64,000 bases of DNA from positions 744,001 to 808,000 of the forward strand of contig NZ_CP081848.1 of the NCBI RefSeq assembly GCF_018982885.2. The letters are read 5' to 3'. Position 1 is the stretch's first letter. Every line of letters starts with the position of its first letter. The position numbers were made by a program, and so were the translations under genes. This document shows, in pieces, positions 11,942 to 28,110 of the stretch. This DNA comes from Polymorphobacter megasporae (GTDB lineage: Bacteria; Pseudomonadota; Alphaproteobacteria; Sphingomonadales; Sphingomonadaceae). The notes beneath the pieces were generated by a model. The model saw nothing but the letters and a program-made list of their open reading frames with translations. It was not told where the DNA came from and searched no databases.

Positions 11942-12015
11942 TGGAGGCCCGACCGGGAATCGAACCCGGGTGCACGGATTTGCAGTCCGTTACGTCACCA
12001 CTCCGCCATCGGGCC
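11942..12015 (-). tRNA. tRNA-Cys (anticodon GCA)
   Basis: On the minus strand the gene begins GGCCCGATGGCGGAGTGG and ends with TCGGGCC, U73 and an encoded CCA, 74 bases in all. The anticodon loop CTGCAAA gives GCA. The T arm CCGGG-TTCGATT-CCCGG is canonical, and U73 is a cysteine-tRNA identity element. Acceptor stem GGCCCGA/TCGGGCC pairs perfectly. Confidence 0.97.
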
Positions 12016-24407: not shown

Positions 24408-24677
24408 CTAATCCTCGCCAAACTTGCCTTCGACGAGCGCGACGAGCGCGGCGAGCGCTTCGTCGGCCTGCTCGCCCTCGGCCGATAGCTCGACGGTGTC
24501 GCCCGGTGCGGCAGCAAGCATCATCAGGCCCATGATCGAGGTGCCGACGACGCTCGAATCGTCCTTCGCGACCGTCACCACCGCGTCGAAGGTCGACGCC
24601 AGCGTGACGAAGCGCGCACTCGCCCGCGCGTGCAGCCCGCGCTTGTTGCGAATCAAGACAGTGACTGGACCCGCCAA
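24408..24677 (-). CDS. ptsH: HPr family phosphocarrier protein (PTS-Ntr type)
   Basis: HPr carries phosphate from enzyme I to EIIA proteins. The 89-residue product has the phosphorylatable histidine in NKRGLHARAS (His16) and the regulatory serine in GTSIMGLMML (Ser47), the site used by HPr kinase. HprK is encoded two genes upstream, so serine regulation is plausible. The start appears to be TTG 24677, three bases after the EIIA stop; no ATG or GTG gives a full N-terminal strand. Enzyme I is not in the window. Confidence 0.93.
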   Translation of the reverse strand: MAGPVTVLIRNKRGLHARASARFVTLASTFDAVVTVAKDDSSVVGTSIMGLMMLAAAPGDTVELSAEGEQADEALAALVALVEGKFGED

Positions 24678-24680
24678 GGC

Positions 24681-25085
24681 TCAGGCCGCCTCGCCGAGGA
24701 TCTTCGACGCAACCGAAATATACTTCCGCCCCGCCTCCTGCGCCGCGTCGACCGCGGCGGCCACCGACATCGTGCCGCGCACCGACACGAGGCGGACGAG
24801 CATCGGCAGGTTGACCCCGGCGATGACTTCGACGCGCTTCGGCACCATCAGCGAGATCGCGAGATTCGACGGCGTGCCGCCGAACATGTCGGTCAGGACG
24901 ATCACCCCCGACCCGCGATCGACCTTGGCAATCGCGGCGGCGATGTCGCCGCGGCGGATTTCCATGTCGTCGTCGGGGCCGATGCAGATGCCTTCGAGCG
25001 CAGTCTGCGCGCCGACGACGTGCTCGAGCGCGGCGACGAATTCGGCAGCCAGCCGCCCGTGCGTCACCAGCACCAGTCCGATCAT
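24681..25085 (-). CDS. PTS EIIA component, mannose family
   Basis: A 134-residue EIIA-Man domain. It starts MIGLVLVTHGRLAAEF with the phospho-histidine His9, followed by DRGSGVIVLTDMFGGTPSNL, the second signature. No EIIB, EIIC or EIID genes are nearby, so it is a regulatory phosphocarrier of the kind in alphaproteobacterial chv-pts loci, not a sugar transporter part. ATG 25085 gives the correct N-terminus; a GTG two codons earlier is possible. It lies 20 bases after the HprK-RapZ stop. Confidence 0.93.
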   Translation of the reverse strand: MIGLVLVTHGRLAAEFVAALEHVVGAQTALEGICIGPDDDMEIRRGDIAAAIAKVDRGSGVIVLTDMFGGTPSNLAISLMVPKRVEVIAGVNLPMLVRLVSVRGTMSVAAAVDAAQEAGRKYISVASKILGEAA

Positions 25086-25105: not shown

Positions 25106-26557
25106 TCACCGTGTCTGCTCGCGGCCCGGTAGCGCGGCTTCGTCGCCGTGACCAGCCCCGGCCCCGTCGGCGGCCGCGCTCGCCCCGCTTGCCTTGTCGC
25201 GGTGAACGACCGACCCGGCCCATCCCGCCGCCGCCAGCCGCTCCGCCATCATCCGCGCGACATAGACCGAACGATGCCGCCCGCCGGTGCAGCCGAAGGC
25301 GACGGTGAGGTACGACTTGCCCTCGGCACCGTAGCGCGGGAGCAGCAGGAGGAGCAGATCGGCGATCCGTTCGAACGCCGGGGCAAAGGCAGGGTCGGCG
25401 GCGACATACGCCCCGACCTCGGGGTCTTCGCCGGTCAGCGGGCGCAGTGCCGCGTCCCAATGCGGGTTGGCGAGGAAGCGGACGTCGAAGACGAGGTCGG
25501 CGTCGCGCGGCAGGCCGCGGGCGAAGCCGAACGACATGATCGTCAGCGTCAGCGGGTCGACCCCGGCGCGGGCGAAGCGCCCGGCAAGCGCGCGGCGCAG
25601 ATCGGAGACGGCATAATCCGAGGTATCAATGACGATGTCGGCGGCGCGGCGCAGCGGCGCGACGATCTCGCGCTCGCGGGCGATGCCGTCGGCGGCGGGG
25701 CGGTCGAGCGCGAGCGGGTGGCGGCGGCGGGTTTCGGAAAAGCGCCGGGTCAGTTCGGTACCGCTGCAATCGAGAAACACCAATGTGATGTCGACGCCTT
25801 CGGCACGGAGGTCGCCGATCCGCTCGACGATCGCGTCGGCATCGAACGCCCGCGTTCGCGAATCGATGCCGATCGCCAGCGGGCGTTCGGCGTCGTGATC
25901 GGCGTGGCCGTCGCTCGTCGCGAGCAATTTGTCGAACAGCCCAAGTGGCAGATTGTCGACCGCCTCGTAGCCGAGGTCCTCGAGCACCTTAAGCGCGGTC
26001 GAGCGTCCCGCCCCCGACATGCCCGTGACGAGGAGGGTGCGCGGCGAGGTCGCGGCGCCGGACGGCGAAACCGGGGAAGACAAAGCGGGCATATCCACGA
26101 ACACAGTCTCTACCCGCCGCCCGAACGCGGTCAACGCCCGTTCGACCTTGAGCGCCGCCGATGCGTCGAACGGATCGAGGCCGATGACCGGGATCGCGTG
26201 GCCGAAGACGTCGCGGGTGGTCGCCTCGGGCAGGCGTTCGGGCGACTCCGCGAGGTCGACGACGAGCGCGACGGGGACGCCGGCGACGTGGCGGATGGGA
26301 ACGATGCCGACGCCCCTGACCTCGATCAGCCCGGCGATCGACGGCGGCGGCGCAGCGATCAGCCGGTTGCCATCGGTGGTCAGCGCGACGCGGTCGTCGG
26401 CGATCAGCGTCGCGCCGCGATCGATCAGCCGCAGCGCGAGGTCGGACTTGCCGCTGCCCGGCGGCCCGACGAGCAGCACCGCGCGCGCAAAGCCCTGCGC
26501 GCCGATCGCGACGCCGGTGGCGTGGATGGTCGGCGGGCCGGGCGGGGGGACCGTCAC
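25106..26557 (-). CDS. HprK-RapZ fusion: HPr kinase domain joined to RNase adapter RapZ
   Basis: One uninterrupted 483-codon frame encodes two proteins that are normally separate. Residues 1-150 are a short HPr kinase/phosphorylase: Walker A GPPGSGKS (31-38), DRGATLIADDRVAL, and IEVRGVGIV (78-86). After a linker rich in Ser, Pro and Ala (157-172) comes a complete RapZ: P-loop TGMSGAGRSTALKVLEDLGY (from 178), DNLPLGLFDKL, VFLDCSGTELTRRFSETRRR, and the C-terminal block FGCTGGRHRSVYVARMMAE. The start is GTG 26557, overlapping the chvG stop (GTGA). An internal ATG in VDMPALSSP could also yield free RapZ. The fusion joins HPr-serine phosphorylation to an RNA/nucleotide-sensing adapter. Confidence 0.93.
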   Translation of the reverse strand: MTVPPPGPPTIHATGVAIGAQGFARAVLLVGPPGSGKSDLALRLIDRGATLIADDRVALTTDGNRLIAAPPPSIAGLIEVRGVGIVPIRHVAGVPVALVVDLAESPERLPEATTRDVFGHAIPVIGLDPFDASAALKVERALTAFGRRVETVFVDMPALSSPVSPSGAATSPRTLLVTGMSGAGRSTALKVLEDLGYEAVDNLPLGLFDKLLATSDGHADHDAERPLAIGIDSRTRAFDADAIVERIGDLRAEGVDITLVFLDCSGTELTRRFSETRRRHPLALDRPAADGIAREREIVAPLRRAADIVIDTSDYAVSDLRRALAGRFARAGVDPLTLTIMSFGFARGLPRDADLVFDVRFLANPHWDAALRPLTGEDPEVGAYVAADPAFAPAFERIADLLLLLLPRYGAEGKSYLTVAFGCTGGRHRSVYVARMMAERLAAAGWAGSVVHRDKASGASAAADGAGAGHGDEAALPGREQTR

Positions 26558-28110
26558 GCGACCGGCAAAGTGACGGTGAAGCGCGCGCCGCCGCCGGTGC
26601 GATTCGCCGCGACGATGCTGCCGTCGTGCGCCTCGACGATCGTCCGCGAGATCGACAGGCCGAGCCCCGAGTGCCGCCCGAAATCTTCGGCTGCCGGGCG
26701 TTCGGAGTAGAAGCGGCGAAAGATGTCGTCGCGATTTTCGTGCGGGATTCCCGGCCCGTTGTCATCGACGCGCAACTCGACGTGACGCGCCGAACGCGTC
26801 ACCGCGACCGCGACGATGCCACCGGGGGGCGAGAACGACACCGCATTGTCGATCAGGTTGCGCGCGACCTGCGCCAGCCGGGCATTGTCGCCGTAGACGA
26901 TCGCAGTCTCGCCGGGACCGACGTAGGCGACCGACACCCCGCGCGGCAGCGGCGCGCTCGAATAGCCGTCGACCAGCCGTTCGACCTGCGTGCCGAGGTC
27001 GAAGCGTTCGTAGCGGCTGCGCGACAGCTCGGCGTCGAGGCGGCTGGCGTCGGCGATATCGGTGATCAGCCGGTCGATTCGCCCGACGTCGGTGCGGATG
27101 ACCTCGAGCAACTGGCTCTGCAGCCGCGGCTCGCGGACGCGCCCGAACGTGTCGACCGCGCTCGACAGCGACGCGAGCGGGTTCTTGATTTCATGCGCGA
27201 CGTCGGCGGCGAACGCCTCGGTCGCGTCGATCCGCTCGCGCAGGGTCAGCGTCATGTCCGACAAAGCGCGCGCCAATTGCCCGATCTCGTCGCGCCGCTG
27301 GTTAAAGCGCGGCACCGTCACATCGCGTGCTCGCCCAAGCCGGACCCGCTGCGCCGCGAGCGCGAGCTGGCGCAGCGGCCGGACGATCGTCGAGGCGAGA
27401 TAGTTCGACAGCAACAGCGACGCGGCGAGGACGAACAGGAAGACATAGAATGACGACAGGCGTTCGGCACGGACGAGGCTGGTGATGTCGCGGCTGTCGC
27501 GGGTCAGCTGGACGGTGGCGAATGGCGCCTTCTCCGGTGCCTCGGCGGTGCCGAACAACGGCGCGGCGGCGCTGATGATGACGATGCGGTCGGGGGCAGC
27601 GCGCATCGTATCGGCCGGGCGGCCGGTCGAGGCGGCAGCGGCGACCTCGGCCCACGCGGCGCGGTTGTCGACCGCGGGCTCGGCGTAGCCGACGATCTTG
27701 GGGAACGAGCCGACCGCCTCGACGACCTGGTCGAGAAAGCGGGCGACATCGCGGCGAAACGGGTCGTCGGCGGGGTCGCGGAGTTCGAAGGTCGGCCCCG
27801 TCGCGCGCCAGCTATCGGCGGCGAGCGCGCCGTCGCGGTCGTAGACGCGCAGCCGCAACGCGCCGACCCGGCCGTAGCGCGCCGCGATCGCGGGGAGCGC
27901 GGCGGGCGGTGCCCCGGCCATGAAGCTCGCGATCAGCACCGCCTGCATCCGCATTTCGGCACGGCGCTGGTCGAGCAGCCGCTCGCGGAACGAGTCGAGG
28001 TAGAAGATGCTGCCGGTCAGCACGAGAATGGCGAAGACGTTGACCGCGAGGATGCGCGGCGCGAGGCTGAAGCTGCGGTTGGGGGTGTCGCCGCCGATGT
28101 CGCGGGTCAC
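26554..28110 (-). CDS. chvG: Sensor histidine kinase ChvG
   Basis: A 518-residue ChvG/ExoS-type kinase that senses acid or envelope conditions. A first membrane segment (ILAVNVFAILVLTGSIFYL), a periplasmic sensor domain of about 190 residues, and a second segment (FYVFLFVLAASLLLSNYLAS) are followed by HAMP, the H-box AADVAHEIKNPLASL, the N-box NLIDNAVSFSPPGG, and the G-boxes DDNGPGIP and GRHSGLGLSISR. The start is GTG 28110. It lies 36 bases after chvI and is coupled to the HprK-RapZ gene. Confidence 0.94.
   Translation of the reverse strand: MTRDIGGDTPNRSFSLAPRILAVNVFAILVLTGSIFYLDSFRERLLDQRRAEMRMQAVLIASFMAGAPPAALPAIAARYGRVGALRLRVYDRDGALAADSWRATGPTFELRDPADDPFRRDVARFLDQVVEAVGSFPKIVGYAEPAVDNRAAWAEVAAAASTGRPADTMRAAPDRIVIISAAAPLFGTAEAPEKAPFATVQLTRDSRDITSLVRAERLSSFYVFLFVLAASLLLSNYLASTIVRPLRQLALAAQRVRLGRARDVTVPRFNQRRDEIGQLARALSDMTLTLRERIDATEAFAADVAHEIKNPLASLSSAVDTFGRVREPRLQSQLLEVIRTDVGRIDRLITDIADASRLDAELSRSRYERFDLGTQVERLVDGYSSAPLPRGVSVAYVGPGETAIVYGDNARLAQVARNLIDNAVSFSPPGGIVAVAVTRSARHVELRVDDNGPGIPHENRDDIFRRFYSERPAAEDFGRHSGLGLSISRTIVEAHDGSIVAANRTGGGARFTVTLPVA

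Follow-up and report, generated by a model that had tools for sequence, protein, structure and literature searches.

A fused HprK-RapZ reading frame in Polymorphobacter megasporae and its relatives with a conserved start-like codon in the linker

RapZ is a very widespread protein whose part in GlmY/GlmZ regulation has been worked out in enterobacteria. In E. coli, RapZ acts as a sensor of GlcN6P and, through contact, stimulates a sensor kinase (PMC7073468), and its lysine/arginine-rich C-terminal tail is reported to be required for RNA binding (PMC5737377). The HprK of Alphaproteobacteria is described as a short type that lacks both the N-terminal domain and the C-terminal phosphorylase region and carries the signature (I,L,M)E(I,V)RG(I,L,M,V)G(I,V)(I,L,M); HPr-serine phosphorylation activity was reported for one such protein (PMC2937029). 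In Brucella, bvrS, hprK, ptsM and ptsO are reported to be co-transcribed, in an order that matches the one described here but without a fusion (PMC2937029; PMC9491525).

For Zymomonas, which belongs to the same order as the organism studied here, a sigma-A promoter of the form TTGNNN and TANNNN with a spacer of 17 and a discriminator of 6 has been described, together with 119 leaderless TSS-gene pairs and 52 leaderless units that also possess an upstream leadered one (PMC7566282). In Sinorhizobium, all mapped leaderless starts were reported to be AUG (171/171; PMC3616915); the putative leaderless start of the present locus is GTG, which speaks against a leaderless reading.

Here we describe a locus of Polymorphobacter megasporae in which hprK and rapZ form one open reading frame. 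It lies in a stretch of 64,000 nucleotides that was analysed as a whole and is termed the window below; its features are collected in Table 1. What sets it apart is the joined HprK-RapZ with a kept putative internal start, the halves themselves belonging to known families. In the open literature, no title or abstract opening announcing an HprK-RapZ fusion was found, subscription journals and domain-architecture databases lying outside the scope of this search.

Table 1. Positions of the features discussed in the text, numbered within the window.
Feature	Position	Strand	Basis
hprK-rapZ fused open frame, 483 aa, GTG start	25106..26557	(-)	
HprK catalytic domain, residues 8-146; GPPGSGKS, ADD, E-V-R-G-V-G signature	26120..26536	(-)	Pfam, motif alignment, AlphaFold, Foldseek
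Linker, residues 147-173; predicted disordered at 150-169	26039..26119	(-)	AlphaFold pLDDT
RapZ, residues 174-454; P-loop GMSGAGRS, GCTGGRHRSV	25196..26038	(-)	Pfam, NCBIfam, motifs, Foldseek
TTGACC, -35-like element, TTG 36 nt before GTG	26129..26134	(-)	Conservation; Zymomonas consensus TTGNNN
TAGAGA, -10-like element; 16 nt spacer, 8 nt to GTG	26107..26112	(-)	Conservation
GTG (V154), conserved start-like codon for a putative free RapZ of about 330 aa	26096..26098	(-)	Conservation
In-frame ATG (M156), alternative internal start	26090..26092	(-)	Sequence
EIIA of the mannose family, next gene downstream of the fusion	24681..25085	(-)	PF03610, 103.3 bits
HPr, SIMG serine kept; presumed substrate of the HprK domain	24408..24677	(-)	Pfam, alignment
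ChvG-like sensor kinase, upstream of hprK	26554..28110	(-)	NF058527, 355 bits, below the cut-off of 740
tRNA gene, sole Rfam match in the window	11945-12015	(-)	Rfam

The fused frame, its halves and its gene setting

An earlier note on this DNA had described a continuous frame joining a short HprK to a full-length RapZ, and this is borne out: between the GTG at 26557, which shares 4 nt (GTGA) with the stop codon of chvG, and the stop ending at 25106 on the minus strand, the frame contains no internal stop and encodes 483 aa with three Pfam domains. These are Hpr_kinase_C (residues 26-94; 61.9 bits against a cut-off of 33.3), RapZ-like_N (residues 175-329; 130.6 bits) and the RapZ C-terminal domain (residues 337-454; 149.6 bits). 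The motifs GPPGSGKS, GMSGAGRST and GRHRSV, which the note had quoted, are all present in the protein. The NCBIfam model of RapZ (NF003828) reaches 326.7 bits with a cut-off of 244. The corresponding HprK models score 68.3 and 49.5, short of their whole-protein cut-offs of 240 and 252, which is the expected outcome because the HprK found here is of the short alphaproteobacterial type.

The AlphaFold model of the fusion (AF2, from 23 fused sequences) is confident for the HprK part (residues 10-146) and for the RapZ domains, and pLDDT is below 50 in the linker (residues 150-169). The pTM of 0.40 for the whole fusion suggests that the HprK and RapZ parts have no fixed arrangement. Foldseek matched the model to RapZ 5o5q (E 2.1e-22), its RapZ C-terminal domain to 5o5s (TM 0.89 by target) and its HprK catalytic fold to 1kkl_B (E 2.8e-11, TM 0.64 by target). 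By the tests made, each half of the fusion is an ordinary member of its own family.

Alignment of the HprK half to 1jb1 located the Walker A motif, the Asp-Asp motif and the signature. Residues G31, G34, G36-K37-S38, A53-D54-D55, E79-x-R81 and G84 are invariant in 23 aligned fusions, as are the catalytic motifs of both domains with the exception of the RapZ P-loop lysine. Like the HprK of Brucella melitensis as described in PMC2937029, this half is devoid of the N-terminal domain of 130 residues and of the C-terminal phosphorylase region, possesses the Walker A motif and the E-V-R-G signature, and neighbors a sensor kinase, EIIAMan and HPr/NPr. Unlike in that protein, its C-terminus runs on into RapZ within one polypeptide.

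The gene order chvG - hprK - rapZ - EIIAMan - HPr is conserved. In the HPr encoded two genes downstream of the fusion, the histidine and the serine region are kept and the SIMG serine is aligned. A genome search identified one copy of HprK, namely the one in the fusion, and the PTS set of this genome comprises one PtsN-like EIIA, an EI of the Ntr kind and pyruvate phosphate dikinase. An EIIAglc-HPr-EI fused protein was found to adjoin a GlcNAc-type IIBC (L173; G000:C1 near 2534177-2535004), and its presence in the genome means that a second HPr domain exists in the cell.

The RapZ half is complete, as its N-terminal P-loop domain and its C-terminal PFK-like domain are both whole. In this it resembles E. 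coli RapZ (5o5o, 8b0i; PMC5737377; PMC7073468), with which it has the P-loop, DNLP, VFDVRFL and GCTGG-HRSV in common. It differs from the E. coli protein in being joined to HprK at its N-terminus, in its location within a PTS operon, in the replacement of the P-loop lysine by arginine and in lacking the basic RNA-binding tail. The arginine of the Walker A motif (GMSGAGRS; window 26015-26000, residues 179-186) is found in the window and in its relative L002; of the 23 aligned fusions, the remaining 21 keep the lysine. Arginine at this position was also seen in several fusions of another family (f30, see below) and in the mycobacterial Rv1421 (9m1q).

The last 19 residues of the window protein include 2 lysines or arginines, compared with 8 in E. 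coli RapZ. The RNA-adapter role that the earlier note had assigned to this half therefore did not hold up: as the basic tail is absent from the sequence, a function of the window RapZ as sRNA adapter is unlikely. With regard to known RNA elements, a search of the window with Rfam at gathering thresholds returned one tRNA gene only.

Distribution and history of the fusion

The statement that hprK and rapZ are normally separate neighbors agrees with the loci of relatives, and a survey of relatives for the same fusion, also proposed in the note, yielded 26 distinct fused genes in the Polymorphobacter/Sandarakinorhabdus clade to which the window belongs. This number was obtained after dropping 12 duplicate loci. 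One locus, L064, is truncated by a contig end ahead of residue 91, yet spans the join. The named fused members are species of Polymorphobacter and Sandarakinorhabdus. Among the six genomes of the window's genus, two carry the fusion, three have separate genes and one gave no match; the fused protein of G002, from the same genus, is 94% identical to that of the window.

Family-wide, at least 16 of 397 genomes are fused, in genera g1, g4, g21 and g93 among the matches listed. Genus g21 is represented by 24 genomes, 21 of which have one open frame over both domains and two RapZ alone; in G426 a contig end cuts the gene, but the join is crossed in frame, and its inclusion brings the count to 22/24. 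Both genomes of g93 are fused, as is one of three in g4, where the other two gave a fragment and no match. In the two RapZ-only genomes among the 24 on the Sandarakinorhabdus side, a genome search for another HprK gave no match, so that the tie between the two proteins appears dispensable in places. At the loci L076 (= L146; 3900-4000) and L073 (= L145), rapZ is kept and hprK is gone; in AAP81b, chvG runs straight into rapZ, and the other hprK-less relative has a different gene upstream.

In a tree of 54 rows from which the linker was left out, the three separate genes of the window's genus group with the 26 fused ones (support 87/80), and the three (96/90) are sister to the window and L002. 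Two changes of state are needed in the clade, either one fusion and one re-splitting or two fusions, and the tree fits both histories. In the three separate genes (L003, L005, and L006), GAA or GAG, codons that fused genes also have, stands where the old stop was, and the new stop follows two codons further on, which leans towards re-splitting. Several separate relatives, for example L037, L039 and L041-L043, have hprK and rapZ in the same frame with a stop between them. Such chance same-frame neighbors are raw material for a fusion and were not counted as fusions. In L037, L042 and L043 the hprK stop is situated 12 nt before the rapZ start, where the window has GAG; across the fused genes this site reads GAG, GAA, GAT, TCA or something similar. 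The fusion in the window fits the loss of the hprK stop codon.

Among the hits examined from a class-wide search of 241 genomes, further fusions were represented by G564, G662 and G455; the stop reported for G455 is not located between the domains. In the alphaproteobacterial family f30, the fusion is present in 12/12 genomes of six genera, all 12 loci having been tested directly. In family f56, for which 39 genomes were searched, three are fused, namely both members of genus g301 and G686 of genus g309. A quick tree was built from 51 rows; it includes 20 of the Sphingomonadales loci and leaves out L212, whose locus contains no HprK. It requires five changes of state and rejects a single fused clade (p-AU 4.5e-61). 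On this tree, the fusions in f30 and f56 are independent of that in the window's clade.

No conserved start codon was found in the f30 linkers, and in L182 and L192 the 50 codons that precede the RapZ P-loop are free of ATG, GTG and TTG. RapZ could therefore hardly be made alone in this family, and its fusion looks obligate. In the f56 fusions L194 and L195, an internal ATG follows a TATAAA-like stretch, and in L194 also an AGGAGG, and may be a possible internal start.

A conserved codon pair in the linker

The earlier note had suggested that an internal ATG might release RapZ alone. The idea is strengthened by a conserved pair of TTG and GTG or ATG (RTG) in the linker; the ATG itself (26092..26090) is not the conserved codon and was rejected as the start, as the clade keeps GTG/ATG two codons earlier. 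GTG or ATG occupies the corresponding place in 26/26 clade genes, and the residue is only valine (by GTG) or methionine (by ATG). In 23/26 genes, a TTG precedes this in-frame RTG by exactly 36 nt, whereas synonymous shuffles within each gene gave a TTG at this distance in a mean of 1.87 and a maximum of 7 genes (1000 rounds). The exceptions are L036 and L058, with TTG at 33 nt, and L004, in which the TTG codon is absent and a TTG in another codon frame lies at 38 nt. Between 15 and 60 nt, no other distance comes near the count at 36 nt; a distance of 20 nt occurs in 6 genes against 1.0 expected, with a shuffle maximum of 5. The signal was retained in 12 representatives of less than 80% DNA identity (10/12; mean 0.76 and maximum 6 in 20000 shuffles). 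In L044, L045, L046 and L139, an insertion has shifted the RTG, and a new TTG is found at the unchanged distance.

A -10-like TA at -15..-12 is present in 11/14 genes on the Polymorphobacter side; in L036 and L058 it is shifted by 3 nt towards the start, matching their shorter TTG distance, and L040 has none. In the Sandarakinorhabdus group, the TA at this position is found in 0/12 genes, so that half of the clade keeps only TTG and RTG; this is the main result against a promoter in that group. A Shine-Dalgarno-like stretch before the RTG was not visible by eye. Sigma-54 promoters have a -24/-12 consensus, and a promoter of this kind on the TTGGCA of the Sandarakinorhabdus group was rejected, as the spacing, judged by eye, is unlike it.

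Of 33 unfused relatives, 13 have a TTG at 34-38 nt upstream of the first rapZ RTG and 20 lack it there; the 35 other distances (20-33 and 39-59 nt) gave 21 hits together. In L037 and L039, the hprK stop is the TAA of TATAAG, a -10-like hexamer upstream of rapZ, and one triplet may there serve as both stop and promoter element. A TTG-TA pair is enriched at this distance in the window's genome: TTG-N16-18-TA at 34-38 nt before RTG occurs at 10/396 and 10/415 sites near ORF starts, compared with 2/1100 and 1/1056 sites inside ORFs (Fisher 6e-5 and 2e-5), in 800 kb whose ORFs were called with a simple rule based on composition instead of a gene finder. Compared with longer distances, as in ordinary leaders, where 13 and 21 hits are spread over 22 distances, the excess is modest, only some two- to threefold, and this weighs against the promoter reading. 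Together with the TA where it is present, the TTG-36-RTG pair has the apparent geometry of a leaderless sigma-70 promoter, also before rapZ in several unfused relatives. In the window it resembles the leaderless sigma-A promoters described for Zymomonas mobilis (PMC7566282) in that TTGNNN and TANNNN are spaced for a transcript start at the start codon. It differs from these in that the putative promoter of the window is deduced from conservation, is located inside a coding region, and has a spacer of 16 and 8 nt to the RTG.

Proposed reading and its alternatives

We propose, with a probability of roughly 0.6, that the locus is a gene with two products, the HprK-RapZ fusion made from the chvIG operon transcript and a free RapZ made from an internal leaderless promoter; the two products may link sugar signalling with the sensing of a cell-wall precursor. 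Following loss of the hprK stop codon in the order of chvG, hprK, rapZ, EIIAMan and HPr, ribosomes on the operon transcript would synthesize the fusion. The stretch that formerly held the stop would also have contributed the -10 element of a sigma-70 promoter, with transcription starting on the rapZ start codon or right beside it. As most of this promoter and the start codon have been kept, free RapZ would be made without a leader, and the same leaderless transcript would also supply EIIAMan and HPr, as the conservation suggests. The HprK part, the only HprK found in the genome, would phosphorylate HPr on serine. The flexible linker would connect it with RapZ, whose fold is a sensor of GlcN6P in E. 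coli; RapZ could in this way set or place the kinase, while free RapZ would dilute or complete mixed RapZ tetramers. By analogy with E. coli RapZ, which senses GlcN6P and stimulates a sensor kinase, control of the attached kinase via a metabolite bound to RapZ would be reasonable.

Several other explanations of the locus were weighed. An assembly or sequencing error that removed a stop can be given virtually no weight: it is ruled out by 26 distinct fused genes, isolates such as Polymorphobacter glacialis CGMCC 1.15519, P. multimanifer DSM 102189, Sandarakinorhabdus oryzae NM-18 and S. cyanobacteriorum TH057 among them, and no point in its favor was found. The stop loss might instead have been harmless, with RapZ as a mere tail of HprK and the functions of both uncoupled. 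Such neutral read-through would agree with the three genomes of the same genus that have separate genes and the two that have no HprK altogether, but it is rather unlikely in view of repeated and old fusions (five changes on the tree), of a wholly fused family f30 and of genus g21, fused in 22/24 genomes if the contig-cut G426 is counted.

The remaining alternatives concern the linker. An obligate bifunctional protein, in which RapZ exists only within the fusion and the kept GTG/ATG has no role, would have a counterpart in f30, where 12/12 genomes are fused, the linker start is unconserved and L182 and L192 are devoid of ATG, GTG and TTG; moreover, the frame is open through linkers of differing lengths in the 26 clade genes. 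For the window this is nonetheless unlikely, as neither a TTG 36 nt before the RTG in 23/26 genes against 1.9 expected nor a residue confined to V or M by GTG or ATG would be anticipated if the codon had no role. Two products would still arise if the TTG..RTG pair were a translational signal, acting through coupled or re-starting ribosomes on an unstructured stretch, instead of a promoter. The Sandarakinorhabdus group, which keeps TTG and RTG without the -10-like TA, and the closeness of the hprK stop and the rapZ start in the separate genes of L003, L005 and L006 speak for this option, which we nevertheless consider slightly more improbable still: the fixed 36 nt, kept after insertion in L044, L045, L046 and L139, fits promoter geometry, L004 supplies its TTG from another codon frame, at 38 nt, and no Shine-Dalgarno-like stretch is visible by eye before the RTG.

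Genes with an internal in-frame start that give long and short products are a general kind, and the proposed two-product gene resembles them in having one frame and two proposed products with a common C-terminal part. Unlike in these genes, the long form would have arisen recently, when two genes fused, and the short form would be the ancestral second gene; the proposed signal is a leaderless promoter. At the join, the same few bases would serve as stop codon, as promoter element and as start codon; loss of the stop would have fused the genes while the promoter largely stayed. A bolder and tentative reading, which we regard as possible but well short of even odds, combines this with function: the former stop lay in the -10 element, the promoter survived the fusion, and RapZ senses an amino-sugar phosphate and thereby sets the serine phosphorylation of HPr. 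If this is true, a single point in the DNA would set the ratio of kinase-bound to free RapZ, and RapZ would be a regulatory partner of HPr kinase in Alphaproteobacteria, a role that involves no small RNA. The independent fusions of RapZ and HprK are physical evidence of the two acting together, and open to test the claim that RapZ controls, or is placed by, a kinase that modifies HPr.
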